64,000 nucleotides of DNA from Alteromonas sp. V450. Its GTDB lineage: Bacteria > Pseudomonadota > Gammaproteobacteria > Enterobacterales > Alteromonadaceae. The notes below the pieces were generated by a model, which was given only the letters and a program-made list of their open reading frames with translations, made no database searches and was not told where the DNA came from. The position numbers were made by a program, and so were the translations under genes. Positions 78 to 14,927 of the stretch are shown one piece after another. The stretch spans positions 868,001-932,000 of the forward strand of contig NZ_MODU01000004.1 in NCBI RefSeq assembly GCF_001885075.1, written 5' to 3'. The first letter of the stretch is position 1, and every line of letters begins with the position of its first letter.

Positions 78-94
78 TGGTGGAGCTGGCGGGA
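78..94. repeat. attL-like 17-bp copy of the ssrA 3' end
   Basis: The 17 bases tggtggagctggcggga are identical to positions 5971-5987, the 3' end of the tmRNA gene including its CCA. Beyond base 17 the two copies diverge. Such a displaced target copy at the far end of an element is the standard footprint of a tyrosine integrase that uses ssrA. Position 78 marks the left island boundary. Confidence 0.9.
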
Positions 95-280: not shown

Positions 281-1570
281 CTACGTCGCTCTGTGCGGCT
301 TTCTCAGTCGAGATAGTTTGTCATAAAGCGATTCCCTTCGGTCGTGCTTGTCGACTGCATGGTGAAGCGCTCTGTGACAGTTGGGGCATAGAGCTACTGC
401 GTTGTCGACGGTGTCTGGCCCATTGTCTGCGAGACGCACAACATGATGTACTTCGAGATACGGTGAGCCGTCATCTTTTACGAACGGAGAGGCGCAGCCA
501 CAAGACTCGCACTCGTCGCCAGCTTCGTTCAGTACCCATGCGACAACCGATGGGTCTCGTTTGTAGGACGTGGAGGTAGTCTCGCTTTTAGACGGGGTCT
601 TGTTGCCAGAAGGAGGCGAGGGGGGCTGCTTCTTACGGAGTGCCTCTACCTGCGTATTGAACGTCGCAACGTCGGTGGGAGCGCTCTTTTCGACTTCTGC
701 CAGTAAGAGCTCAATCTCCCTGGTTACGTTCGCTCCGACGTTTCTCGCAGGTCGCAACCCTTTGATCCACTCTCGACCCTGCTGAGCCAATACGTGTGAG
801 ATGTTCTGCATTCTGAACTCGAAGGACTTCTCCGTCCTGTCGAAACGTTCCGCAAGACGTCGATAGACTTCCTTTTTCACGAACGGCTCACCAGCGGTCT
901 GCTTGTCTCTCATTTCGACGTACGCCTCGACAGAGGCTTTCAGTTCTTCCTTTGTCCACTGATTACCGTTCGAAGAAATAATTCGAGCTGCCTCGTCGAA
1001 CACCTGCTTTATTATCGGCTCCGAGCCTTCCGTGTTCCTCGCACGCATTGCAACGTGGGGGCACTTTAGAACAGTCACACGTTTTTCAACCATGCCGACC
1101 AACCTGTCGTATTGAGAGCATGCAGGTTTCCCGATGAGTACGACAACTTTCAGATTCGAGAGGAGTTGAAGAATTTCTTGAATCGAAGAAGCCCCATTGA
1201 TGACTTCAGCTTTTGATAGGCTTGTAGACTGGTTATCCAGGAACCACGGAACGATATTCCATAGGAGAATGTCCTTGCGGTTGATACCCGCTTCATCCAG
1301 GAATCTGAACATAGACGATGCAGTCTGATCGGGGTTTTCCTGGGAAATGAAACCACTCTCAACCGCTGGACCAGGCGATGTTTGGAGAAACAAAGCTTGA
1401 GCCTGTGCGCCTCCGTCGAGAGGATCAAAATTAGGAAAGGTTACAGGACGGTTCGCATAGCTCGCCATTTGCTCCAAACAATCACGAAGAACGGCTACGT
1501 GCGGTTCTTTGAGAAGTGAGAGTCTCCGATGAACTTCGGACTTATCTTTCAGTGCGTATTTTTGAGTCAT
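281..1570 (-). CDS. Uracil-DNA-glycosylase-like domain fused to HNH endonuclease
   Basis: The protein has 429 aa. Residues about 55-200 resemble the uracil-DNA glycosylase superfamily: a first motif region FLQTSPGP (61-68), SGFISQENPD (72-81), LLWNIVPWF (102-110), VVVLIGKPA (142-150) and a final motif CPHVAMRARN (170-179). Residues about 205-290 look like the helical DNA-binding segment seen in some HNH proteins (EFRMQNISHVL at 251-261). A proline/serine linker (314-337) leads to an HNH domain with C354, C357, H375/H376, N390 and the C395-x-x-C398-H399 knuckle. The start is supported by AAGGATC 7 nt upstream. It is the last gene of the island. The plausible role is recognition of modified or damaged bases followed by cleavage, for example against phage DNA. 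The domain calls are fairly firm; the biological role is inferred. Confidence 0.75.
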   Translation of the reverse strand: MTQKYALKDKSEVHRRLSLLKEPHVAVLRDCLEQMASYANRPVTFPNFDPLDGGAQAQALFLQTSPGPAVESGFISQENPDQTASSMFRFLDEAGINRKDILLWNIVPWFLDNQSTSLSKAEVINGASSIQEILQLLSNLKVVVLIGKPACSQYDRLVGMVEKRVTVLKCPHVAMRARNTEGSEPIIKQVFDEAARIISSNGNQWTKEELKASVEAYVEMRDKQTAGEPFVKKEVYRRLAERFDRTEKSFEFRMQNISHVLAQQGREWIKGLRPARNVGANVTREIELLLAEVEKSAPTDVATFNTQVEALRKKQPPSPPSGNKTPSKSETTSTSYKRDPSVVAWVLNEAGDECESCGCASPFVKDDGSPYLEVHHVVRLADNGPDTVDNAVALCPNCHRALHHAVDKHDRRESLYDKLSRLRKPHRAT

Positions 1571-1637: not shown

Positions 1638-2486
1638 CTAAAAATCTAAGTCTTCGTCTAAGTCCTCTTGGCGCTTCTCTCTTCGTTTAACCGACACGGG
1701 AAGATCCAAACGTGTCTTTCGACTGACTCGTTTTAGTGCGGCGAGGAACACATCCTCGTCTTGTTCTACCAGCTTCTCGATCGACCTTGCCATCTGTTCA
1801 ATTCGAGCTGCCTCGCTGCGGTCTTCGATTGGCTTTCTGTCGAGCACGAACCGATAGGAGGGAAACCCGAGATGGTCTGTGGGAATGGTCTCTAGTCCCG
1901 CTCTCGCATAGCCTTCTTTTGCCATCTTTTTGCACCATCGAGTGACTTTACCAATGATGTCGTTTTCATCGTCTGACCTCACTACCTCTGCCTCTTCGAT
2001 GAGCTGTCGAGCGGCTTGGCGAACCTTCTGTGCGAGCCTTTCTCCGAGACCCTGTTTGACGAGTTCGCTGGTGGAAATACCATCATTCGAGAATATACAG
2101 GAGCGAAACGCAGCCCTGGTCGCATCGCTGGGCGAGACGCTTACCCCGTGTCGTGTATTGACCATATAAGCGAGACTGAGTGCCTCTTTGAACGAGTAGG
2201 GGCGAACTATCGCTGGGATCTTTGTTGGTGTCTTCTCGGCCACCTTTTGGTACACCTGAAGACGATTATGTCCGTCGAATACGAGCCACTCGTCGCCGTC
2301 TCTAAATACCTCGATAGGGTCGGTGTGCTCTCCTGCGGACACAATCTTGAAGAGACGCTTTCGAAGTGCGGCCAGGCTCTCTGCCTCGCCTCGTGAATCA
2401 TCACCGTAGACGGTTTCAGAGCGAACTTGAAGGCGTGGATCTGTGTCGACCTCGTTTGGGTCTAGGTACATTATCTTTTCGTTCAT
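1638..2486 (-). CDS. ParB/sulfiredoxin-fold domain protein
   Basis: The protein has 282 aa. The N-terminal ~90 residues match the ParB-N/Srx fold, with the hallmark DGHNRL at 71-76 preceded by a PIEVFRDGDEWLVF strand pair. The middle (about 105-170) is helical and may hold a DNA-binding segment. The C-terminus is very acidic and basic (RREKRQEDLDEDLDF). It is not a plasmid partitioning ParB: no ParA gene lies nearby. Single ParB/Srx-domain proteins occur on phages and satellites as nucleases, CTP-binding proteins or regulators, and which applies here cannot be told. It sits between the resolvase and the glycosylase/HNH gene, with 67 bp to the latter. The start is supported by CAGG about 8 nt upstream. 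Confidence 0.7.
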   Translation of the reverse strand: MNEKIMYLDPNEVDTDPRLQVRSETVYGDDSRGEAESLAALRKRLFKIVSAGEHTDPIEVFRDGDEWLVFDGHNRLQVYQKVAEKTPTKIPAIVRPYSFKEALSLAYMVNTRHGVSVSPSDATRAAFRSCIFSNDGISTSELVKQGLGERLAQKVRQAARQLIEEAEVVRSDDENDIIGKVTRWCKKMAKEGYARAGLETIPTDHLGFPSYRFVLDRKPIEDRSEAARIEQMARSIEKLVEQDEDVFLAALKRVSRKTRLDLPVSVKRREKRQEDLDEDLDF

Positions 2487-2634
2487 CGTTACTACCTGTT
2501 GTGACGAAAAGGCGAACCCGTACGGTAGTTAATGAAGGAGGGGAGTCCTGACAAGGCTAAGACCTTTATTTGTCGAGCTTCCCGAGGCGTTAGTACTGCC
2601 GAACGAGGATCGCCAAAATGCCGGAAAATGACTT

Positions 2635-3183
2635 TTATGATTCGTTCTTGATGCGCTGAATCGTTTTACTGCTACAACCGAGCTTCTTGGCGATTTGAGC
2701 CATAGGGAGACCCTCTGCGAGCAAGGCTTTGACTTCTTCTCTGTCGACACGTTTCGCTCGTTTTTGGCTGTAGACGCCTCTCGCTTTTGCTTTCTCGATA
2801 CCTTCACGTTGGCGTTCGTTAATCATCGCTTTCTCGAACTGTGCGACTGCACCGACCATAGACAGCATGAGATCCTGAAATTTGTCGACTATCGACCCGC
2901 TAAACGTGAGGTCTTCTTTGTGGAACTTCAGGGTCACGCCTTTCGACTTGAACTCTTCCACCAGCGTTAGAAGGTCTTGAAGATTACGAGCGAGACGGTC
3001 GATTGAATGGACGTGAACGGTATCGCCCTCGCGAACATAGTCGAGGAGGTCGGTTAGAGCAGGTCGGTCGGTCGACCCACCTGAACACTTGTCAGTAAAG
3101 GTCTTGTTGACTTCGACACCGTCAAGCTGGCGTTCGGTGTTCTGATCGGTGGTGCTAACACGGATGTACGCAATGTCAGTCAT
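2635..3183 (-). CDS. Serine recombinase of the resolvase/invertase family
   Basis: The protein has 182 aa, the usual size of a small resolvase. The catalytic N-terminus is intact: YIRVSTTDQN with nucleophile Ser10, and DRLARN with Arg63/Arg66. A long helix (E helix) follows at about 105-135, then a C-terminal helix-turn-helix (about 145-180, MAQIAKKLGCSSKTIQRI). GAGGG lies about 5 nt upstream of the ATG. A cluster of GGACATTAA-type repeats begins 11 bp upstream of the start and looks like its res site. Its likely task is resolving multimers or cointegrates of the excised element, with self-repression. This is inferred from the family. Confidence 0.88.
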   Translation of the reverse strand: MTDIAYIRVSTTDQNTERQLDGVEVNKTFTDKCSGGSTDRPALTDLLDYVREGDTVHVHSIDRLARNLQDLLTLVEEFKSKGVTLKFHKEDLTFSGSIVDKFQDLMLSMVGAVAQFEKAMINERQREGIEKAKARGVYSQKRAKRVDREEVKALLAEGLPMAQIAKKLGCSSKTIQRIKNES

Positions 3184-3363: not shown

Positions 3364-4458
3364 TTAAAAGTCCCGCTCTTTGAGTGTTTGACAAGTCGCA
3401 TCAAGACCTGGAAAGAGAGACGCCGCGTTAATACCCATTAGCGATAAGTCCGCGATGACGTCATTTCTTTGTTTCGCTTCAATGTCGATGATCTCCAGGT
3501 ATTTTTCGCCAGTTTGTTTTTCGACATACTTCAAGTAGTGCTCTATCGACATCAGGTTTGTGAAGGTAACGAGTCCTTGTTGCGGCAGCACTCGAGTATT
3601 GGAGCTAGAGACAATGTCCAACAAATTAAACGAAGGACGAGGATCTATCAGTGCAGTACCCCCACTTAGACCAGAGTTCCGCCATTGTTGTCCATAAAAG
3701 ATGAAAACTCGTACTTTACCATCATGGTCTTCATATTTATCCAGCGAATTGAAACCGAAAAATGCTGCAACGTATGGAGAACGGGTCCAATCCAAGAAAG
3801 GAGTGGGGTAGCCGTGATGTTGGCCGAGAAGAACTAATTCAGATAAATCCCCGCCATCCTGAAGAAAAAACTTCCGACCGAGTTGTGCGGCTACGTATTT
3901 GTTTAGATTGTTGAGGTCTTCCTCTTGGTATCGAAAAAGGTTTCGCCTATTAGTTCGATGAAAAGAGGTAACCAATGGCCAACTACTATCTGACTGACCT
4001 CGAAATATTGCGTCAGGGTTCGTTTTGGCTTTTTCGTGGATGAAGGACTTAAAGTCGCTCCAACTTAATTCGTGGTCTGGCGGTGAAGATTCAACTTGAA
4101 TATTATCAAAGAGTTTCAATTGACCATGTGTGTCAACGTCTGTTTGCCAGTTCCCAGAGATTTCCCAATCGTCATTGAATTCACCTTGAAAATTGATTTT
4201 TTGCGGTGCTACAGCATTGGGGTTTGTCGGGTAATCGGGGTCAAAAAACGGTAGAACTAAAGACGAAGTCCCAACGATGCTTTTCCCTTCACGTTTTAAA
4301 TCGAAAATCGCTCTCACTGATGGCACAGAGGGATCTTTATCATGCAAACAGACGAAAGCCTTGTTTAAACGGTCCGCATCAATGCTCAACATTATTGTCC
4401 CTTCGTTTGTACCGCTGATTCGACCTATCCAAAGTCCCCAGGCAAGTTCCATGTTCAT
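3364..4458 (-). CDS. FRG-domain protein
   Basis: The protein has 364 aa. The FRG domain runs from about residue 130: SWSDFKSFIHE, FRGQSDSSWPLVTSFHR (FRGQ at 152-155) and LLGQHHGYPTPFLDWTRSPYVAAFF (about 210-234), matching the family pattern FRGQ...QH-G-PT-LLDWT-SP--A. The N-terminal ~110 residues are a beta-rich region with no recognised domain. FRG proteins often occur in defence islands, but their biochemical role is unclear to me. The ATG at 4458 shares its A with the integrase TGA (TGATG), and GAGGG inside the last integrase codons gives a 7-nt spacer, so translation is probably coupled. GC is clearly lower than in its island neighbours (22/60 to 26/60 in sampled lines), suggesting a separately acquired cargo gene. 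Confidence 0.82.
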   Translation of the reverse strand: MNMELAWGLWIGRISGTNEGTIMLSIDADRLNKAFVCLHDKDPSVPSVRAIFDLKREGKSIVGTSSLVLPFFDPDYPTNPNAVAPQKINFQGEFNDDWEISGNWQTDVDTHGQLKLFDNIQVESSPPDHELSWSDFKSFIHEKAKTNPDAIFRGQSDSSWPLVTSFHRTNRRNLFRYQEEDLNNLNKYVAAQLGRKFFLQDGGDLSELVLLGQHHGYPTPFLDWTRSPYVAAFFGFNSLDKYEDHDGKVRVFIFYGQQWRNSGLSGGTALIDPRPSFNLLDIVSSSNTRVLPQQGLVTFTNLMSIEHYLKYVEKQTGEKYLEIIDIEAKQRNDVIADLSLMGINAASLFPGLDATCQTLKERDF

Positions 4459-5807
4459 CAATTAACCCTCATATATGTAATCTTCTGTATGATTCGCTGC
4501 TTTTGAACTAATGACATTCCAGCAGAATACAGCGAATAAGTCATTCCGGTCTTCTCATGTCCAACAATCTCCGCGGCCTCGTTGTGACTTACACTTGCTC
4601 GTTCAAACAGCGTGGACACCGTTTTACGAATCGAATGGAACACGTAACGACCGTCGAAGCCGAGGCCATCACGAAGTGTTTTGAACCGTTTTCCAACAGC
4701 GTCTCCTCGCTCCCCATTCTTAGTGACGGACTCACCAGGCAAAAGATAACCGTCGGAACTCTTCTCGACAAGCTCATCCACCAGCGCTGCCAGTTCGCTG
4801 TGTACGGGAACCTCGCGAAGTCCGGCTTTCGTTTTGGCGTCTATTATATCGAAGAACCGAATACCGTCTCGTTCTTTAACGTGTGCGACCTTGAGACGAG
4901 CGATCTCCTCGCGTCGCATCCCGGTGTAAGCGGCGATAGTGATGGCGGCGACAAGGTTTGGGTCTTTACGAGGTTTATTTTTGGCTGCGTCAATGAGCCG
5001 TGGCACGTCGGAAACCTCGAAGGCTTGCCGAAGGTCTTGTTTCGATGCTTTTCGTTTGCTGGTGAACTTGTGGCCTTCGAAAGGGTTTGCCTCGTCGGGG
5101 TTCAAGTAGTCAAGCCTTTGCAAGAACTCGAAGTAACCGCGACACGTTCCTACTCGGGCCTTGATAGTGTTCTCGGCGAGGCTCTGTTGTTCCATTTCCA
5201 TGATCCACTTTGTCACATCAGAACGCTTAACGGGGAGGGCGGGGAACCGTTTGTTTAGTAAGTCGAGATGATGCTCCCTTTGCTGCTTCGTACGTGATTC
5301 AACCGAAAGGCTCGATAAATACTCGTCGACGTGGGTTGGAGTCGGCAGAAGGATTCCTTCGACAATATCTGCAAAGCGTCTCATCGCATCGGGGCCTTCC
5401 TCGTGATAGATCCGCTCGAGTTCGTCGGAGTAGACCATCTGCTGCGTCCCCAAGCCTAACTCGTCAACGTCCCTTGCTAAAGTGGGCTTATAGCCATGCT
5501 GCCGTGTAAACTTCTCGATAAGAACCGCGTCTTTGCGACGCTCATCTTCGAGTATTTTTCGCCACTCAAGTGCTCGATGGGCTACACCGACGTTTCCTCG
5601 GTATGTCTCGATCTGTGCCTTCCATTCAGTGACGATTCGACTCGCCCTATACTCAGCGTCTTTTAGATTTTTGGTTTTTAACGTCTGCCAAAGCTCGGTT
5701 TTCCCGAAGAACTCCCGGACGTCCTCGGGGACTGTTAAACGTGCGTAATAAGTGTGGCCGCGTAGCGCAAGGAACGGCCTTCCGACGGGCTTTTTCCACT
5801 TAGCCAT
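4458..5807 (-). CDS. Tyrosine site-specific integrase of the ssrA element
   Basis: The protein has 449 aa. An N-terminal arm-binding-like segment (RPFLALRGHTYYARLTVPEDVREFFG, about 10-35) resembles the start of many island integrases. A SAM-like core-binding domain follows (about 155-235). The catalytic domain has TGMRREE (R298), K325/K327 in the beta hairpin, HSIRK (H391, R394), GHEKTGM (H417) and a nucleophile Tyr in YSLYSAG (probably Y427). The gene is transcribed away from ssrA and starts 163 bp from its 3' end, the normal arrangement for an element inserted in tmRNA. The stop overlaps the FRG start. All catalytic residues appear present, so it should be active. Confidence 0.93.
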   Translation of the reverse strand: MAKWKKPVGRPFLALRGHTYYARLTVPEDVREFFGKTELWQTLKTKNLKDAEYRASRIVTEWKAQIETYRGNVGVAHRALEWRKILEDERRKDAVLIEKFTRQHGYKPTLARDVDELGLGTQQMVYSDELERIYHEEGPDAMRRFADIVEGILLPTPTHVDEYLSSLSVESRTKQQREHHLDLLNKRFPALPVKRSDVTKWIMEMEQQSLAENTIKARVGTCRGYFEFLQRLDYLNPDEANPFEGHKFTSKRKASKQDLRQAFEVSDVPRLIDAAKNKPRKDPNLVAAITIAAYTGMRREEIARLKVAHVKERDGIRFFDIIDAKTKAGLREVPVHSELAALVDELVEKSSDGYLLPGESVTKNGERGDAVGKRFKTLRDGLGFDGRYVFHSIRKTVSTLFERASVSHNEAAEIVGHEKTGMTYSLYSAGMSLVQKQRIIQKITYMRVN

Positions 5808-5883
5808 GCCTTTGGGTTACCTCATTTAGTTCCACTTCGAGACGCTGATTTTAGCGATGTTTCTCGCTGGGTCAAGGCTGGTG

Positions 5884-5906
5884 GGTTCCCCGAAATAGTT
5901 CCCCGA
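5884..5906. repeat. Right pair of GTTCCCCGA repeats, putative integrase arm sites
   Basis: GGTTCCCCGA at 5884-5893 and AGTTCCCCGA at 5897-5906, with starts 13 bp apart, lie between the integrase start and the att core. They match the left pair at 159-180 in sequence, orientation and near-helical-turn spacing. Confidence 0.55.
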
Positions 5907-5918
5907 AGGTGTAGGCAA

Positions 5919-5960
5919 TAAAAAACCCCGAAGGCTTATTTTACGCGGCCTAGCGGGGTT
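5919..5960 (-). terminator. Island-borne terminator directly after ssrA
   Basis: On the minus strand, aaccccg (5960-5954) pairs with cggggtt (5930-5924) around a long loop, followed by a run of T (ttttttatt). It begins 11 nt after the tmRNA CCA and lies inside the element, so the island supplies a terminator in place of the host one it displaced. Confidence 0.7.
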
Positions 5961-5970
5961 CTTCAGTGTG

Positions 5971-6330
5971 TGGTGGAGCTGGCGGGATTTGAACCCGCGT
6001 CCAGAAAATGTCTACCTTTGGTACTACATGCTTAGTTTGTCATTTATTTAACTGCTTGGAACTCCGACAAACAGGATTTCCTTGCAGCTGGCCTAATACT
6101 GTTTCGCGGTTCACCCTTAGACAAGGTTCCCTCGCTATCCTACTTGGATGACCTTCCGAATCCCCGCTAGCAGGAAGAGACTAGGGTGGAAGGGCCTATG
6201 CCGGTTATTAAGCGGCTAGTGCGTATGTTTCGTCGTTTGCGACTATTTAAATGCGGCTTTTTTAAGAGGCCAACCGCTCCTCTGCATGCACCTCCGGCTT
6301 CCTAGATCCTGTCGAATCCTAATCAGCCCC
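5971..6330 (-). ncRNA. ssrA: tmRNA (transfer-messenger RNA)
   Basis: The gene spans 360 nt. The 5' end reads GGGGCTGATTAGGATTCGAC and the 3' end closes the tRNA-like domain with GGTTCAAATCC and a CCA at 5973-5971. The encoded tag lies at 6240-6211 and reads ANDETYALAA, followed by two TAA codons (6210-6208, 6207-6205). tmRNA with SmpB rescues stalled ribosomes and marks the nascent chain for proteolysis. The partner gene smpB is 1.6 kb away. The 3' 17 bp are shared with the island left end, so the gene remains intact after integration. Confidence 0.97.
6211..6240 (-). other. tmRNA proteolysis tag reading frame
   Basis: Ten codons GCA AAC GAC GAA ACA TAC GCA CTA GCC GCT give ANDETYALAA, then TAA TAA. 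The E. coli tag is ANDENYALAA, so one residue differs (N to T) while the ClpXP/ClpA-recognised end LAA is kept. Confidence 0.93.
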
Positions 6331-6716
6331 GAGCGTGATTTTCAATAATAGCACAATTGTCACATGGTGAAATACAATCTTTTGAAAAATTCTATAAATT
6401 TTAATGGTTTGGCTATAAATCAACCAAGAATAACATCTGGTTTTTCAAAAACTTACCCGTGTGGCCTTCAGTTTCAGCTTTTCTAAAACTACAACGCACT
6501 AACAGTGTGTATCATTGAAGTACTATAGATATGTGGATGCCTGAGTAAAATTCAAGTGCTCGACGCACAAGGTCTATGCGAGAAACGCAAATTACAAACT
6601 AAAACAGCGCTTTTTATTTGAATGAAATAGCAAATTTTAAGGAAATAGTGCTGCTGTAGTGATGCAATTACCTTGAAGAACTATTAAAGTACGGGTCCAC
6701 GATTAAAAGGCTTGTT
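6331..6716. other. Intergenic region between ssrA and the OYE-family gene
   Basis: The 386-bp AT-rich gap holds the promoter region of ssrA (minus) and of the oxidoreductase (plus). The motif tattat lies on the minus strand upstream of ssrA but at poor spacing to +1, so I do not assign a promoter. I see no gene or repeat. Confidence 0.5.
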
Positions 6717-7946
6717 GTGTTAATGTCTTCAGATTCTATTTTGTATTCTCCCTATACCTTGCCCTGTGGTGTCACAGTAAGAAACCGTCTCGTTAAAGCT
6801 GCAATGGAAGAAAACATGTCCAGTATGGGCAATATTCCTGGCGAATCGTTATTTTCTCTTTATCGTTACTGGGCTCACGGTCAACTTGGCATGATCATTA
6901 CGGGGAATGTCATGGTAGATAAATCGGCCATGACTGGGCCCGGTGGCGTAGCGCTTGATAACAACACTGACTTAGCACCCTTTCAAAAGTGGGCGAAAAT
7001 TATTAAGTCGAATGGGGCGCTCGCCATCATGCAAATCAATCACCCCGGCCGTCAAGTATTTAAAGCTATGAAAGGGAAAGCAATTGCCCCTTCGGCTGTG
7101 CCAATAGATATGGGCAAGCATTCCAAGCTTTTCGCTCAGCCAAAAGAGATGACTTGTCAGGATATACATCAGGTTTGCAAATCATTTGTCGAAACTGCCA
7201 AGCAAGCTGAAAATGCAGGGTTTGATGGTGTTGAAATTCATGCCGCACATGGTTATTTGCTAACGCAGTTTTTATCTCCACTAACCAATCAGCGACAAGA
7301 CGAGTGGGGCGGTTCAATTATTAATCGTGCCCGTCTGCTAATTAACATTGTTAGTCAAGTCAGAGCCGTATGCGCGAAAGACTTTGTTGTAATGGTAAAG
7401 CTTAACTCCGCTGATTTTCAGAAAAATGGTTTTTCTTTTGATGACGCATGTGAGGTAGTGAACCGACTAGAGGCCTTAGGGGTTGATATGGTTGAACTAT
7501 CTGGAGGAAGCTATGAAGTGCCAGCCATGCAGGGCGAAACGCGCGACGATACAACCCTCGCTCGGGAAGCGTATTTCCTTGAATTTGCGCAAGTACTCGA
7601 GCGTAAAACTGATATTCCCTTAATGACAACGGGTGGAATTAAACGCGCAGAAGTTGCAGAGAACGTGATAAAACAGGGGTGTGCGTTGGTTGGTCTTGCT
7701 AGCGCTTTGGCTACGACACCCGACCTAGCGAAAAAATGGCAGCATGAATGGACGTACACAGGCATTATCCCTGACTGTACGTGGAAGGATAGGTCGCTTG
7801 CAAGCCTTGCTAATATGGCGATGGTCCGAAGGCAGCTAAGGCGCCTTGGCAACAACCTTACTACGCTTAGAAATCCTTCACCACTATGGAGCCTTATTCT
7901 TGATATGCTACATCGCAAGAAAATGACGAAACGGGATGTGAGCTAA
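6717..7946 (+). CDS. NADH:flavin oxidoreductase of the Old Yellow Enzyme family
   Basis: The protein has 409 aa and an FMN-binding TIM barrel. Visible hallmarks are INHPGRQ in the first third, the double-His active-site motif EIHAAHGYLLTQFLSP with its Tyr, NQRQDEWGGS, and the FMN-phosphate region (TTGGI, GCALVGLASALA). The C-terminal ~50 residues are an extension outside the barrel. Members reduce activated C=C bonds or related substrates with NAD(P)H; the substrate cannot be told. GTG at 6717 has AAAGG 6 nt upstream; the ATG at 6723 is an alternative with poorer spacing. It stands alone and converges on smpB. Confidence 0.88.
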   Translation: MLMSSDSILYSPYTLPCGVTVRNRLVKAAMEENMSSMGNIPGESLFSLYRYWAHGQLGMIITGNVMVDKSAMTGPGGVALDNNTDLAPFQKWAKIIKSNGALAIMQINHPGRQVFKAMKGKAIAPSAVPIDMGKHSKLFAQPKEMTCQDIHQVCKSFVETAKQAENAGFDGVEIHAAHGYLLTQFLSPLTNQRQDEWGGSIINRARLLINIVSQVRAVCAKDFVVMVKLNSADFQKNGFSFDDACEVVNRLEALGVDMVELSGGSYEVPAMQGETRDDTTLAREAYFLEFAQVLERKTDIPLMTTGGIKRAEVAENVIKQGCALVGLASALATTPDLAKKWQHEWTYTGIIPDCTWKDRSLASLANMAMVRRQLRRLGNNLTTLRNPSPLWSLILDMLHRKKMTKRDVS

Positions 7947-7959
7947 TCAAAACACAGCG

Positions 7960-8439
7960 CTATACGCTGTGTTTCATCATTCTTTCTTTTTGGCGCTGCC
8001 AATCTTTGTCTTTAATGGTGTCACGCTTGTCATGAGCGTGCTTACCCTTAGCGAGGTGAATTTCTAACTTCACCCAACACTTTTTCCAATACATAGATGT
8101 GGCAACGATAGAATAACCTTGGCGGTCTCGTGCTCCCATTAAGCGGTCGATTTCTCGTTTGTTCAGCAACAATTTGCGCGCACGCTCGGGAGCAGCAATA
8201 ACATGGGTAGAGGCTTGGTTAAGCGGACTTATTCTACACCCTACCAAATATGCTTCGGCATTCTGAATAATAATGTACGCATCGGTAATGTTCACTTTAC
8301 CGGCACGAATGCTTTTAATTTCCCACCCTTGTAGCTCAAGTCCGGCCTCGAACTTGTCTTCTAGGAAATAGTCATGACGCGCTTTTTTGTTTTGCGCGAT
8401 ATTTCCTGTGGTGTTTTTGTTGGCTTTATTCTTTTTCAT
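7960..8439 (-). CDS. smpB: SsrA-binding protein SmpB
   Basis: The protein has 159 aa, the usual length. Near-invariant stretches are present: [52 protein letters not shown] and the basic C-terminal tail ([24 protein letters not shown]), which enters the mRNA channel. It binds the tRNA-like domain of the tmRNA encoded nearby. It is transcribed divergently from ratA, with 145 bp between their starts. Confidence 0.97.
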
Positions 8440-8584
8440 GCTGGCTATTATACTGATTGTTCGAAGGAATGTCTTTAGTTGTCATTGTTATCTTATATTG
8501 GGGCATTTGGTTCAAAACCGAATACGAGCGAAGCAAAATTTCTGTGATACAATGCCGCCAAGAGTTTTAATTATAGTGGAATCA

Positions 8585-9016
8585 ATGCCAAGTATTCATA
8601 GAAGCGCGCTGGTAGCTCATAGCGCAGAAGCCATGTTTAACTTAGTCAACGATGTAGCTTCCTACCCTGAGTTTTTGCCAGGCTGTACTGATAGCAAAAT
8701 CCTCGACACGTCAGCGCAAAGCATGAAAGCGTCGTTGTTAGTGGCAAAAGCAGGTATTAAGCAGTGGTTTACAACACAAAACGTGTTAGAGCCAGGTAAA
8801 AGCATTCAAATGCAGCTGGTCGACGGGCCGTTTCGCTCGCTTACCGGTGGGTGGACGTTTTCAGCGTTATCTGAAGAAGCCTGTAAAATTGAATTAAATC
8901 TTGAATTCGAATTCAGTAACAAATTAGCTGAAATGGCGTTTGGCAAAGTGTTCAACAGTTTAGCGAGCAGTATGGTTGCTGCATTCACAGACAGAGCGCG
9001 GAGCGTGTACGCATGA
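8585..9016 (+). CDS. ratA: RatA-like START/coenzyme-Q-binding domain protein
   Basis: The protein has 143 aa and one polyketide-cyclase/START domain: [71 protein letters not shown]. It matches E. coli RatA (YfjG) and yeast Coq10-like proteins. The E. coli protein was reported to block 70S assembly; homologues assist quinone function. I chose ATG 8585 because the domain begins immediately after it, while the longer upstream reading frame is hydrophobic and unlike the family. The stop overlaps the next start by ATGA. Confidence 0.92.
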
Positions 9017-9360
9017 GTAAGAAGCTCATCAATATTGAGGTGGCCTATGCGTTACCCACTAAGCAAACCATTATTGATGTCGCAATTCATGAAAATGCAA
9101 CGGTAGAGGAGGCGATAGAGGCCTCAAATGTACTAGAACAGTTTCCCGACATAGATTTAAAAGCAACAAAAGTGGGCATTTGGAGCCGTGTGGTTAAGCT
9201 GCGAGATACACTTACCGACGGCGACCGTATTGAAATTTACCGCCCGCTTATTGCCGACCCCAAAGAAATTAGAAAGCGTCGTGCAGAAAAAGCAAAAGAA
9301 GAAGGGCGTGCCGATAAGGTAACGGGTGGAAAGGTTAACCCACTAAAGGCTAAATCGTAG
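9013..9360 (+). CDS. rnfH: RnfH/RatB family ubiquitin-like protein
   Basis: The protein has 115 aa and the beta-grasp (UPF0125) signature: [56 protein letters not shown] and [16 protein letters not shown]. Start and ratA stop share ATGA, so the two genes are coupled. The partner process is not known with confidence. A strong hairpin terminator follows 26 bp after the stop. Confidence 0.92.
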
Positions 9361-9385
9361 CAGCGCGATGTAAAACGATGATATT

Positions 9386-9411
9386 AAAAGGCCCTTTAAA
9401 GGGCCTTTTTT
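9386..9411 (+). terminator. Rho-independent terminator after ratA-rnfH
   Basis: A perfect palindromic stem (aaggccc / gggcctt) is followed by six T. It is symmetric enough to serve marR from the other strand as well. Confidence 0.9.
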
Positions 9412-9419
9412 GACGTGGT

Positions 9420-9899
9420 CTATACGGTCTTATCGGCAATACTGCCGACCTCAAGAAACGGTGATGCGTCGATATCTTCAGCATCCATCATGCTAGCAAT
9501 GCGCTGAACGGTGGCGACCATTTGACTTTGTTCCCATTCCTTTAGGTGCGAGAAACGCTCAACGAAGTGCTCCTGTAGCGGACGAGGAGCATCAACTACG
9601 GCTTCTTTACCACGCTCGGTTAGAAATACGCCAACTTTACGCTTATCTTGTGTACTTCGAATACGCGTGGCCAAGTCTCTTGATTCAAGACGGTCTAGAA
9701 TATTGGTGATAGTAGCAGGGCTTAAATTAATGTTTTCTGCTATTTCTCGCACCATAATACCTGGTTGTTCTTGTATGTTTTGCATAACAAGCAACTGAGG
9801 CCCAGTAAGCCCAACATGTTTACTAAGTTGCTTGCTTCGCAAGTCTACAGCACGTATTACCCGCCGTAGTGCCACTAATAATTCTTCTTCTTTACGCAT
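9420..9899 (-). CDS. MarR-family transcriptional regulator
   Basis: The protein has 159 aa and a winged helix-turn-helix: LSKHVGLTGPQLLVMQNIQEQPGIMVREIAENINLSPATITNILDRLESRDLATRIRSTQDKRKVGVFLTERG, with the wing at DKRK. It lies 30 bp downstream of the BCCT gene on the same strand and may regulate it. A 16-bp palindrome 18 bp before its ATG is a candidate autoregulatory operator. The ligand is not predictable. Confidence 0.92.
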   Translation of the reverse strand: MRKEEELLVALRRVIRAVDLRSKQLSKHVGLTGPQLLVMQNIQEQPGIMVREIAENINLSPATITNILDRLESRDLATRIRSTQDKRKVGVFLTERGKEAVVDAPRPLQEHFVERFSHLKEWEQSQMVATVQRIASMMDAEDIDASPFLEVGSIADKTV

Positions 9900-9917
9900 A
9901 GTACTTCCAACAAAATA

Positions 9918-9933
9918 GTAACGCGTGCGTTAC
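9918..9933. promoter_or_regulatory. Palindrome GTAACGC-GT-GCGTTAC, candidate MarR operator
   Basis: Two perfect 7-bp arms are separated by GT. The site covers the end of the BCCT gene and the short gap before marR. Its size and symmetry fit MarR dimer operators. This is a positional inference only. Confidence 0.5.
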
Positions 9934-11900
9934 TTGAGCAAATGAATAAAATGTTGGTGCTTGTGATAGTGATCAATCACATCGTTTATCACCGATATTT
10001 TAGACCAGCCCATAATATCATAATTCTGACCACCTTCACTGAGGTGTACTTCGGCGCGATAGTACGTTGCCTTTTGGTTTTCGTCCAGTGCTGGTGCATC
10101 AGATGGCCCAAATTCTGGTTGTTCTGTCGGCATAGGGTATACCGCATAGATAAATTCTGGATCGTTCCCCATGTCCACCGTAAGAATTAACGCTTCGTCT
10201 GTATCGCTTACTGTAGCGGTGAATTGCTGTGTTTTGAATTCTTCCCCCACTTCAAAAAGCGCAGGCTTCACAACCTTATTGATATAGCGCCTAACTGCAT
10301 TTTCATCTGGAAACGTAACAATATTTTCAAGACGCTCTTTCCAGTTTTTGTCGCCTTCATTATGCTGAGGTGTTCCGGCTAGAACCTGCAAACTTTCACG
10401 CTTGTACGCTTCTACTCTCAGTGCTTTTAGTAAGCCTGATATTGCGATAAGCAAAACAATAGCGAAAGGGAGTGCGGCGGCAATGGTCATCGTCTGTAAT
10501 GCACCTAAACCACCCGCGTACAGTAGTACTGCACTAACTACACCAACGCCTATCGCCCAGTAAACGCGCTGCCATAAGGGGGTGTTGTTTTCGCCATGAG
10601 AACAAAGCATGTCTACAACCATAGCGCCTGAATCACAAGAAGTAACAAAAAATACAACGACCATGAGTACGGCAATAAAACTCAATACGGAAGAGTATGG
10701 GAATTGTTCCAAGAATACGAATAATGCAACGGACGTATCTTCATTAACCATTTGAGCAAGCGCATCTTTGCCTTGTACCAACACTTGGTCAATGGCACCG
10801 TTGCCAAACACGGTCATCCAAAACAGCGTAAATGCTGATGGAATAAGCAGCACGCCCATGACAAATTCACGAATGGTTCTGCCGTAAGAAATACGGGCGA
10901 TAAATAGGCCTACGAACGGTGCCCATGCTAGCCACCATCCCCAGTAAAAGATAGTCCAGCCACCAATCCAGTCTGTTTTTTCATAGGCAAATAGGTTAAA
11001 CGTGTTGCGCACTAAATCTGACAAATATGCCCCAGTGTTTTGCATAAATGCCTGCAGTAAGAACACTGTCGGGCCCAAAACCAACACCGTCAGCAGTAAT
11101 AAAATAGCAAGTACCATGTTGGTTTCAGATAACCGTCGAATGCCTTTGTCTAACCCCGTGGTTACAGAAATAACGGCTAACCCTACAACACCTGCCATTA
11201 TGGCAATTTGTACACCCGTATTTGACGGCAGTCCGAATAAATAGTTAAAGCCAGCATTAACTTGCGACGCACCGAAACCAAGCGACGTAGAAACGCCGAA
11301 AACGGTTGAGGTAACAGCGAAAATATCAACAACGTGACCAGGCCACCCATATATTTTGTCGCCAATAAGAGGGTAGAGTGCTGAACGAAGCGTTAGTGGT
11401 AAATTTTGGCGGTAGGCAAAATAGCCTAAAATGAGTGCAACAACGGCATAAATAGCCCAAGCATGAACACCCCAGTGAAAAAATGTGGTTTTCATGGCTT
11501 CTCGCACAGCGTCGATGCTTTCTGCTTGAGCAGTGGGTGGAGCCATAAAGTGCATTAGCGGCTCAGCAACACCAAAAAACATTAACCCGATACCCATGCC
11601 GGCGGCGAACAGCATACTCAGCCATGTACCAAAACTAAATTCTGGCGTGGCGTGGTCTGGACCGAGTTTGATTTCTCCGTAGCGAGACATGCCAAGAAAT
11701 ACAACAAACAAGACAATTGCAGCAACGGTAAATACGTAAAACCAACTGCCGTTAGTTACTATTACGCTTTGCAACTGCTGAAAAATAGCGTCTGCTTTTT
11801 TCGGGGCACCTGCGGCAAAAATGAGTAAACAAACGATTATTGCTGACGACGTAATAAACACCGGTTTGTTCAAAGGTGAAGTTTTAATGTTTTCACTCAC
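9930..11900 (-). CDS. BCCT-family transporter (choline/betaine/carnitine), BetT-like
   Basis: The protein has about 656 aa, 12 membrane segments and a ~150-residue cytoplasmic C-terminal domain. It aligns by eye with E. coli BetT: SRYGEIKLGPDHATPEFS, MLFAAGMGIGLMFFGVAEPL and the aromatic substrate box WTIFYWGWWLAWAPFVGLFIARIS. The M-G-I-G-L-M stretch has Gly where sodium-coupled members often have it, but coupling ion and substrate are uncertain. I prefer GTG 11900 (AAAGGA upstream) over an in-frame start 66 bp further up. It probably imports compatible solutes. marR follows on the same strand. Confidence 0.9.
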   Translation of the reverse strand: MSENIKTSPLNKPVFITSSAIIVCLLIFAAGAPKKADAIFQQLQSVIVTNGSWFYVFTVAAIVLFVVFLGMSRYGEIKLGPDHATPEFSFGTWLSMLFAAGMGIGLMFFGVAEPLMHFMAPPTAQAESIDAVREAMKTTFFHWGVHAWAIYAVVALILGYFAYRQNLPLTLRSALYPLIGDKIYGWPGHVVDIFAVTSTVFGVSTSLGFGASQVNAGFNYLFGLPSNTGVQIAIMAGVVGLAVISVTTGLDKGIRRLSETNMVLAILLLLTVLVLGPTVFLLQAFMQNTGAYLSDLVRNTFNLFAYEKTDWIGGWTIFYWGWWLAWAPFVGLFIARISYGRTIREFVMGVLLIPSAFTLFWMTVFGNGAIDQVLVQGKDALAQMVNEDTSVALFVFLEQFPYSSVLSFIAVLMVVVFFVTSCDSGAMVVDMLCSHGENNTPLWQRVYWAIGVGVVSAVLLYAGGLGALQTMTIAAALPFAIVLLIAISGLLKALRVEAYKRESLQVLAGTPQHNEGDKNWKERLENIVTFPDENAVRRYINKVVKPALFEVGEEFKTQQFTATVSDTDEALILTVDMGNDPEFIYAVYPMPTEQPEFGPSDAPALDENQKATYYRAEVHLSEGGQNYDIMGWSKISVINDVIDHYHKHQHFIHLLK

Positions 11901-12200
11901 GCAAAAATGATCCTTTCTCTTCCTTCGGGTTAAAGCTTTTACGTTGAAATATACCGCATGGAGCACTTTTTATAAACATCAGCTGAAATAATTAGAGGTA
12001 AATCTTTATTTTATGATCTTTTTAAAGGCTTTCTTTTGAATATTTAGCTTTGTGAATGCTTGTACATCTTTCGAATAAGATTTATTCGTTAGAGTAGAAA
12101 TTATCTTGGTATGGTGTATCTTTATATATGATCTTTTTGATACGTGTAAGAAGTAAACACTATCCGAAGAATTAATAATAATTGAAGGAAACACACACCC

Positions 12201-14927
12201 ATGCGAAAAACTCAGCTAAGCTGTGCAATTGTCGCTGCACTGGCTTCCACTCATCTGTACGCGCAAGAATCTGAAGCCCCCGCTAAACTCGAAACCATTG
12301 AAGTTACAGCCACTAAACGCGCTGAATCAATTCAAGACGTGCCCGTAGCGGTAACGGCGCTAAATGGAAAAGCGTTAGAAAACCTTGGTATTGATAACTT
12401 CCAAGATTACGTAGAGTTTTTGCCCAATGTGGTGTTTCAGGGCACAGGCCCTGGTCAGAATGAAATTTATATTCGCGGTGCAGCAACAACACAGTCGAAC
12501 ATCATGCTTTCATCTGTTCAGGCGTTGCAGCCGTCAGTAGCGTTTTATCTTGATGAGATGCCGGTTTCGATGGCAGGGCGCAACTTAGATGTTTACGCAA
12601 CTGATGTTCAGCGTGTAGAGGTACTTCCTGGGCCACAGGGGACCTTGTTCGGTGCAAGCTCTCAGGCGGGAACCATTCGACTTATTACAAATAAACCGGA
12701 TCACACAAGCTTTGCCGCAGGTTTCGACACCAATATTGGCTTTACCAAAGGTGGCGAAATGAGTAACGCCGTCGAGGCTTATTTCAATATGCCGCTTACT
12801 GATGATTTAGCAGTGCGTGTGGCTGCTTACAACGATAAGCAAGGTGGTTGGATAGATAACGTCATGAATGTGCCAGGTGAGGGCGGTTACATTGGCAGTG
12901 CGGTCGTAATCGACAGAATTTCTGGTGGGGTGCTGGCTGATCCTGCAGGGATGGACGCAAACAGGATCACTAATCCAAACATTAATTCAAGCAACGACGC
13001 CGCTGTGGTTTCTCCCCAAAACGATGCGCTGGTAGAAGAAGACTTTAACGATGCCATGTACACCGGTGCACGCATTGGGTTGTCTTACCATATAAATGAA
13101 GATTGGGATTTGCTGGTACAACATACGCAGCAAACTCTCGATACCGAGGGGGTATTTGCTTACGACCCTACGCTTGACGGTGAGAGTTCTGCTTTGCGGT
13201 TCCAGCAAGAAGAAAATAAAGATGAATTTGGTTTGACTACGTGGACTCTTGAAGGGCGCTTAGAGAAGCTAAATGTTGTATATACGGGTGGCTACCTCGA
13301 CAGAGAAATAGACACACTAGCCGACTATACCGGTTACACTAATGGCGGTGCATTTGCTGCGTATTATGTATGTAACCACTATGAGGCGGGTGTAACGCCA
13401 GAAGATCAGCGTTGTCTTGATCCAACTAAGTATTACCGTGAAGATACTACGTCTACGCGTGTAACCCATGAACTGCGTTTTAATACAACATTAGACGAAC
13501 CATGGCGCGTGACAGCAGGTTTATTCTACGACGAACAGGAAGTGTCTACGGTCGGGCAATTCAAAATAGCGAATACTGACGGAGAGTTAACAGCCTTTGG
13601 CTTTGATCAGCTAGCGCGCACGTTAAAGCCTGTATCTGAAGGCTTGGCGCCAATTGGCGCTAACAGCGATGGTGGGCCGTTCCCGTCAGAGGTAAGTTTC
13701 GTTAATGATATCACACACACCATAGAACAAATTGCAGCTTTTGGTCAGTTTGAATACGACATTACTGACACGGTTACAGCAAGTATTGGCGCTCGCTGGT
13801 ACCAAATTGATGATATCTATCAAGGTGCTACAACCACAGTCGATGTAACACGTCGAATTCGCGCTTTTGGAAGCATGGATCCCGCTCAACTAGAAGCCGT
13901 AGGACTAGATTCCGATGCTATTGCACAAGCAGTTAGTAATGGCCAGTTAGAGGTAGGTCTGCTTGGTAGTGACGGTGTCTTGACCGTGGATGACACCATC
14001 TTTAAGTTCTCGCTCGACTGGAAAGCGACAGACGACATACTGTTATTTGCCAATTACTCAGAAGGCTTTCGACCACCTGTTACTAACCGCGTTGGCGGCG
14101 GGTTAGCAAAAAACCAGAGTGGCGCGTTTGAAGGATTCCGCATTCCGGTATATTCAACTACCGATACCCTAGACAACTATGAGCTGGGTATTAAGGGAGA
14201 CTTCTTTGATGGCCAATTTAGGGTAAACGCTACGGCGTATTATTCTGAAATTGAAGAACTACAGACATCTCGATTTGACCCCACCAATATCTCGTTCTTA
14301 GTATTTACCGACAACGTTGGTGATGCAGAGATAAAAGGTATTGATGCTGATATGACCTGGCTAGCTACAGATGATTTAGTGATTAATGCTGCATTTAGTT
14401 TACTAGACACGGAGCTAACGCGGGTAAATGATGAACTGGTAGGAATTGCCGCAGGCGTAGGTTCAGAACTTCCTTATTCGGCTAAATTCTCTGGTAACGT
14501 TAACGCACGATACTTCTTTGAGTTAGATGGTGACCGTCGAGGGTATGTAAATGGCTCAATTAGCTACACGGGAGACCGCCTAGCCGGAATGATCATGGAT
14601 GCCTACGTTATGGAGGACGCCACACAGCTTATCTACGGAACGGGCTCTGGCCTTAAAATTGAGCAAGAGGCAGATGTGTATGAAGGGGTGACTTACGCAG
14701 ACTCCAATGGAGCAACCTTCCGAGGTGGTCGTTATGTTCAAGAGTCATACATATTGACTAACTTGGCCGTGGGCGTTACCAATGATGTATGGAAGGCCGA
14801 ACTTTACATAGATAACGTGTTTGACGAACGTGCCATTTTGAATATTGATACGCAACAGTTTACGCCAAAAGTTGTGACCAATAGACCACGTACAATAGGC
14901 GTTCGTTTCTCTTACGATTATTATTGA
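12201..14927 (+). CDS. TonB-dependent outer-membrane receptor
   Basis: The protein has 908 aa and a cleavable signal peptide (MRKTQLSCAIVAALASTHLYA). A TonB box-like stretch follows (ETIEVTATKRAESIQDVPVAVTAL), then the plug domain (to about residue 165, VEVLPGPQGTLFGASSQAGTIRLITNKP) and a 22-strand-type barrel ending in aromatic VRFSYDYY. It takes up an unidentified large substrate using TonB energy. No N-terminal signalling extension for an ECF sigma factor is present. The upstream 230 bp are very AT-rich and likely hold the promoter. A terminator follows before the TPR-sulfotransferase gene. Confidence 0.94.
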   Translation: MRKTQLSCAIVAALASTHLYAQESEAPAKLETIEVTATKRAESIQDVPVAVTALNGKALENLGIDNFQDYVEFLPNVVFQGTGPGQNEIYIRGAATTQSNIMLSSVQALQPSVAFYLDEMPVSMAGRNLDVYATDVQRVEVLPGPQGTLFGASSQAGTIRLITNKPDHTSFAAGFDTNIGFTKGGEMSNAVEAYFNMPLTDDLAVRVAAYNDKQGGWIDNVMNVPGEGGYIGSAVVIDRISGGVLADPAGMDANRITNPNINSSNDAAVVSPQNDALVEEDFNDAMYTGARIGLSYHINEDWDLLVQHTQQTLDTEGVFAYDPTLDGESSALRFQQEENKDEFGLTTWTLEGRLEKLNVVYTGGYLDREIDTLADYTGYTNGGAFAAYYVCNHYEAGVTPEDQRCLDPTKYYREDTTSTRVTHELRFNTTLDEPWRVTAGLFYDEQEVSTVGQFKIANTDGELTAFGFDQLARTLKPVSEGLAPIGANSDGGPFPSEVSFVNDITHTIEQIAAFGQFEYDITDTVTASIGARWYQIDDIYQGATTTVDVTRRIRAFGSMDPAQLEAVGLDSDAIAQAVSNGQLEVGLLGSDGVLTVDDTIFKFSLDWKATDDILLFANYSEGFRPPVTNRVGGGLAKNQSGAFEGFRIPVYSTTDTLDNYELGIKGDFFDGQFRVNATAYYSEIEELQTSRFDPTNISFLVFTDNVGDAEIKGIDADMTWLATDDLVINAAFSLLDTELTRVNDELVGIAAGVGSELPYSAKFSGNVNARYFFELDGDRRGYVNGSISYTGDRLAGMIMDAYVMEDATQLIYGTGSGLKIEQEADVYEGVTYADSNGATFRGGRYVQESYILTNLAVGVTNDVWKAELYIDNVFDERAILNIDTQQFTPKVVTNRPRTIGVRFSYDYY

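Follow-up and report, generated by a model that had tools for sequence, protein, structure and literature searches.

A uracil-DNA glycosylase-superfamily domain joined to a helical and McrA-type HNH core on an ssrA-integrating island of Alteromonas: a possible modification- or damage-dependent restriction endonuclease

What could be the function of a protein which carries a domain of the uracil-DNA glycosylase (UDG) superfamily and a zinc HNH nuclease on the same chain? This question is raised by a gene at 281..1570 (minus strand) of a 64,000-nucleotide stretch of Alteromonas sp. V450 DNA, referred to here as the window, where the first-pass annotation had proposed that UDG-like, helical and HNH parts are united in one 429-aa protein of a mobile element. 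The single chain and its three parts were borne out by matches in Pfam, PADLOC and the PDB, and the gene was placed on the minus strand; a plus-strand open reading frame at 281-1570 was ruled out, since it contains stops.

The boundaries of the mobile element could be located as well. The integration target is ssrA (tmRNA, found with ARAGORN at 5971..6330, minus strand), whose 3' end constitutes the inner attachment repeat (5971..5987), and this 17-bp copy recurs as the outer attachment repeat TGGTGGAGCTGGCGGGA at 78..94. All five genes between the repeats are on the minus strand: the tyrosine integrase of the island (4458..5807; PF00589, E 3.6e-16), an FRG-domain protein (3364..4461; PF08867, E 5.9e-20) which is the PADLOC candidate PDC-S15 (E 5.5e-47), a serine resolvase/invertase of 182 aa (2635..3183; PF00239, E 4e-37), a ParB-like protein of 282 aa with a VFDGHNR box (1638..2486; PHROG 1033, E 7.1e-8, with no Pfam match at E 0.01) and the fusion gene itself. 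The mobile setting claimed earlier for the fusion gene is thus confirmed by the ssrA attachment repeats together with the integrase and the resolvase. Among the five genes no match to a cognate methyltransferase was found.

The UDG-superfamily domain occupies residues 1-202 (965..1570, minus strand). Its match to PF03167 scores 35.6 bits against the Pfam gathering score of 24.3, and the alpha/beta fold of the UDG superfamily is present, so that the proposed UDG module was recovered by the profile search and survived the structure-fold check. A match by chance was ruled out by these two results; 12 of the 13 members of alignment A1 also match PF03167. In an alignment of 29 sequences the fused domain keeps 21 of the 22 columns which are conserved in at least 90% of its 28 relatives, including Trp104-Asn105 and His172, and a decayed pseudodomain is therefore disfavoured; at the 75% level 35 of the 45 columns are kept, while the relatives range from 29 of 45 (L047) to all (L052, L056, L077). 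The pocket of the superfamily binds flipped bases. A profile alignment places Asn105 opposite the Asn of UdgX, and the counterpart of that Asn in the S. tokodaii enzyme, N82, contacts the Watson-Crick face according to the Brig1 paper (PMC11078745). In the UDG tree the end branch of the fused domain is 1.28 long against a median of 0.37, with three other branches longer still, and its placement is unsettled.

The excision motifs of the domain, on the other hand, are altered. Motif 1 is QTSPG (63-67), with T64 where 23 of the 28 relatives have E before xP, and motif 2 is HVAM (172-175) as opposed to HPSP in 21 of 28, so the usual excision motifs of the subfamily (E/Q/D in motif 1, HPS in motif 2) are not found in the fused domain. 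Ten of the 45 columns conserved at the 75% level or above have changed, and five of these lie in the two motifs, which make up eight of the 45 columns (hypergeometric p 0.0083, with none of the other 28 rows reaching 0.05); since the motif set was named after the alignment had been viewed and 29 rows were tested, the apparent concentration of losses in the motifs is suggestive only. The fused domain has lost the most motif positions among the 29 rows (five), followed by L047 (four), the rest having lost 0-2. Individual departures occur elsewhere too: Q, A or D is found in motif 1 of L024, L046, L045, L084 and L047, and motif 2 is other than HPSP in L028, L041, L047, L048, L055, L076 and L083.

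These features bear on a two-step mechanism, in which the UDG domain would excise an abnormal base and the HNH domain would then cut the backbone at the resulting abasic site or close to it. Such an enzyme would be in line with the retained fold core, Asn105 and His172, and with precedents in the parts of the literature available: Brig1 and Brig3, which share the UDG-superfamily fold and were compared by description only, excise modified phage bases in defence (PMC11078745; PMC13160076), no nuclease domain being described for them there, and enzymes of the PabI type restrict through base excision (PMC10273834). Nevertheless the alteration of both motifs, which hold half of the lost positions by a count whose motifs were chosen post hoc, speaks against excision, and we regard the two-step mechanism as unlikely. 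As both motifs are changed, the UDG domain may read rather than excise bases, and we tentatively consider, as a possibility below an even chance, that a glycosylase domain now serves as a reader, having changed in its excision motifs and kept its base pocket, and that base capture licenses the HNH domain. L047, with a longer frame and the next most changed motifs, fits this idea, although two cases seen afterwards prove little. Additionally, the genome contains two further UDG-superfamily genes, so that uracil repair need not depend on the fusion.

Most relatives of the UDG domain consist of this domain alone (~200 aa); the relatives are annotated as uracil-DNA glycosylase (family) protein and are found on plasmids and chromosomes. 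They share 27-36% identity with the fused domain in alignment A1, and as much as 42% in a local segment, as well as the same conserved columns, whereas their excision motifs are mostly intact. In 27 of the 28 compared relatives at most 34 residues follow the UDG domain. The exception is L047 (Rhodococcus sp. 008 plasmid, 5719-8391), where 599 more in-frame residues end in a RAMA domain (PF18755, E 4.6e-11); the gene is annotated only from 6583, itself an ATG, and the frame may encode a single protein or hold two genes. RAMA domains occur in restriction-modification settings. On the Cupriavidus malaysiensis plasmid (L050, 5917-7680) an EVE-HNH gene, its EVE match just under the Pfam cut-off, stands directly after the UDG gene, and on the Paracoccus zhejiangensis plasmid (L049, 4936-12477) an ADP-ribosylglycohydrolase gene is beside it with SIR2 and DUF87 nearby; neighbours of the latter kind are described around Brig1 relatives in the Brig1 paper (PMC11078745). 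Five of the eight plasmid loci with UDG relatives are without anything defence-like by annotation, and the neighbourhoods neither prove nor exclude a defence role for the subfamily.

No second full-length UDG-HNH fusion was found in the relatives, family, order, class, phylum, viral, plasmid and phage sets. Among the 98 genomes of relatives, including the own genome, no other listed place spans both parts; some of the HNH-only places there (G022, G061, G086, G014) sit in frames of 354-556 aa. In the family set (395 genomes) and the order set (394 genomes), both of which overlap with the relatives and with each other, none was found either. In the class set, searched with the UDG part only (274 genomes), the two other matches have frames 209 and 239 aa long. 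In the phylum set, searched with the UDG profile, a subfamily member is present in 13 of the 398 genomes, own included, and in the 12 others no more than 12 residues follow the UDG domain, none continuing into an HNH domain. A scan of genome contigs gave 13 loci, none of them a second fusion, and none was found in the viral contigs either (one scan covering the best 80 of 170); among the matches listed for 168 plasmid records none reached at least 80% of the query, and the eight matching phage records contained no fusion. Single-protein contig scans rely on short exact peptides, which distant fusions could escape. The literature on UDG or glycosylase with HNH in defence or restriction contained no UDG-HNH fusion by title or start of abstract among the matches listed, a weak indication as subscription papers were mostly outside its reach. 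The architecture is apparently rare.

The remaining part of the chain consists of a helical middle domain (residues 205-300; 671..958, minus strand), which resembles PADLOC PDC-S36 (E 5.7e-24 over 201-337; model m593207c2e1de), and a zinc HNH nuclease domain (residues 335-429; 284..568, minus strand), which matches PF01844 and EcoKMcrA. Cys354, Cys357, Cys395, Cys398, His375, His376, Asn390 and His399 are invariant in 14 sequences, and we take their zinc and catalytic roles to be those of the family; the domain is accordingly of the McrA-type zinc HNH kind, with catalytic and zinc residues intact. Its nearest matches are EcoKMcrA and ScoMcrA, whose PDB titles describe them as modification-dependent.

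How often this helical and HNH core occurs, and with what in front of it, was surveyed over all 186 loci gathered by then, which gave 53 helical-domain frames from 53 loci. By hand 14 second-copy loci were removed (L026, L042, L075 and L103 for the window, L029, L044 and L104 for A. salexigens, and L057, L106, L110, L114, L115, L116 and L161 for others), leaving 39 and, as L021 and L022 are identical, 38 distinct proteins. A McrA-type HNH domain is present in 33 of the 38, 12 of these coming from the viral collection and two (L017, L018) being 99% alike; L020 and L021 combine the helical domain with a different HNH type. The lengths of the N-terminal extensions run from stop to stop and are upper bounds: the frame is at most 70 residues in 23 of the 33 core proteins and above 100 residues in ten, where six carry one module of ~130 aa (L032, L107, L108, L109, L111, L113), two another (L031, L058), one (L037) carries a third kind and is unclassified, and one, the window protein alone, has the UDG domain. 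None of the non-UDG modules obtained a Pfam name at E 0.01, and the two recurring ones are candidate sensors. Different N-terminal modules are thus exchanged on the same core. A separate observation concerns L106 (G509 C78:28001-44000, ~5525-13676), a core relative 61% identical with an N-terminal module of the L031 type, in which an insert of ~8.1 kb with transposition-like genes (by eye) lies just before the LEVHH motif.

The N-terminal half of EcoKMcrA, the NEco domain, reads modified cytosine without flipping it. This half of the Type IV modification-dependent HNH enzyme (PDB 6ghc) does not align with the fusion, and ScoMcrA (SBD-SRA-HNH, PDB 5zmm) has sulfur-binding and SRA sensors where the fusion has the UDG domain (PMC7461809). 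VcaM4I (PMC7897488) is like the fusion in that an N-terminal sensor, a base-flipping one on an HNH dimer, is joined to HNH, and unlike it in that the UDG and helical domains are replaced by an EVE (PUA-like) domain and a linker helix. The order of sensor, helical DNA-binding domain and HNH is shared by HHPV4I (SRA-wH-HNH), with SRA in place of UDG; its SRA is dispensable and the middle wH domain, an m6A reader, recognises the mark (PMC10101028). The UDG domain of the fusion could therefore also be accessory.

A sister island bears on the history of the fusion. In A. salexigens ASW11-19 (G026) an island with an identical attachment repeat is integrated at ssrA; its integrase, resolvase, ParB-like protein and HNH module are 89%, 92%, 78% and 93% identical with those of the window, respectively, and other genes occupy the position of the FRG gene. 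Its HNH protein has its own GTG start, is 229 aa long and is without a UDG domain. DNA likeness between the two islands stops ~36 bases before the stop of the ParB-like gene and restarts at residue 203 of the fusion. The dN/dS of the HNH module is 0.083 at a dS of 0.495, which indicates that purifying selection has acted on the core between the two islands. As the core exists alone, almost identical, in A. salexigens, the UDG domain is an add-on, and since most core relatives are without it, its gain in the lineage of the window is probably the simpler history.

The same observations could suggest that the helical and HNH core alone is a restriction enzyme which reads its own mark, the UDG domain being young, dispensable or merely DNA-binding. 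The A. salexigens protein, the dispensable SRA of HHPV4I, the many core proteins with little or no N-terminal extension and the lack of another UDG-HNH fusion in the searched sets all fit this explanation. However, the recurrence of other N-terminal modules, in six and in two proteins, suggests that additions matter, and the core has lost its native start in the window, where it is made via the UDG start unless translation can begin further inside the frame, at residue 175 or 190, which might yield the core alone. We find this explanation improbable.

The genes around the core raise a further question, whether the protein is concerned with defence at all. The first-pass annotation had named a location of the homologues mainly outside mobile and defence contexts as grounds for refutation. 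By eye six of eight core loci look mobile (L016, L019, L031, L033, L034, L036) and two (L030, L032) show no clear mobile sign, but L016 and L019 belong to the viral collection, so that their mobility follows from the way they were selected, which leaves four of six. L019 is near homologues of NsnA (E 4.8e-108) and NsnB (E 7.9e-82) and a C5 cytosine methylase. No PADLOC match was obtained for six cargo proteins of the islands in A. salexigens and Thalassotalea. A nuclease for the maintenance or repair of the element, acting with the resolvase and the ParB-like protein, would explain why resolvase, ParB-box and HNH genes stand together in four elements, namely the window (1638-3183), A. salexigens (L044), Thalassotalea (L031, 5048-8678) and G509 (L106, 2311-5528). 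Against this, BLASTP detects no likeness between the ParB-like proteins of one lineage and those of the other (E 0.28), the trio was seen only at L031 among the eight core loci read, and restriction enzymes are the nearest matches of the nuclease; such a function outside defence is very unlikely in our opinion.

With moderate confidence, we read the fusion as a restriction endonuclease of the modification- or damage-dependent, Type IV-like kind on an ssrA-integrating island, with the UDG domain mainly as reader. The UDG-fold domain would scan DNA and take an abnormal base, uracil or a modified phage pyrimidine, into its pocket, and the helical and McrA-type HNH domains would bind close by and cut the backbone, probably in dimeric form. 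The flipping of the base, the dimer, the cleavage, the class of substrate and the role against phages are what we infer. A restriction enzyme with a UDG-fold sensor is the best reading because of the McrA-like core, the exchanged N-terminal modules and the base-binding UDG pocket, and it is favoured by the conserved columns kept in the UDG domain, the selection on the core, the neighbours of L019, the precedent of VcaM4I and the two other UDG-superfamily genes of the genome. The restriction function supposed at the outset therefore stands as the best reading, the nuclease being closest to such enzymes, qualified by the add-on nature of the UDG domain and its altered excision motifs. The strongest counter-evidence comes from the A. 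salexigens core without UDG together with the dispensable SRA of HHPV4I; the plasmid UDG loci with nothing defence-like, the single example of the fusion and the internal starts also count against it.

A restriction enzyme of the sensor-plus-HNH kind with a UDG-fold sensor is thus plausible and partly supported. If this is true, a glycosylase-derived class of sensor would be added to modification-dependent restriction beside SRA, EVE, YTH, SBD and NEco, the N-terminal sensor of the nuclease core would be exchanged between mobile elements, and the newly found defence glycosylases Brig1 and Brig3 would be linked with nuclease-based restriction. The N-terminal modules found on the core offer a limited set of candidates for base sensing, and the A. 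salexigens island offers a natural control without UDG, in which the contribution of the sensor is directly measurable.
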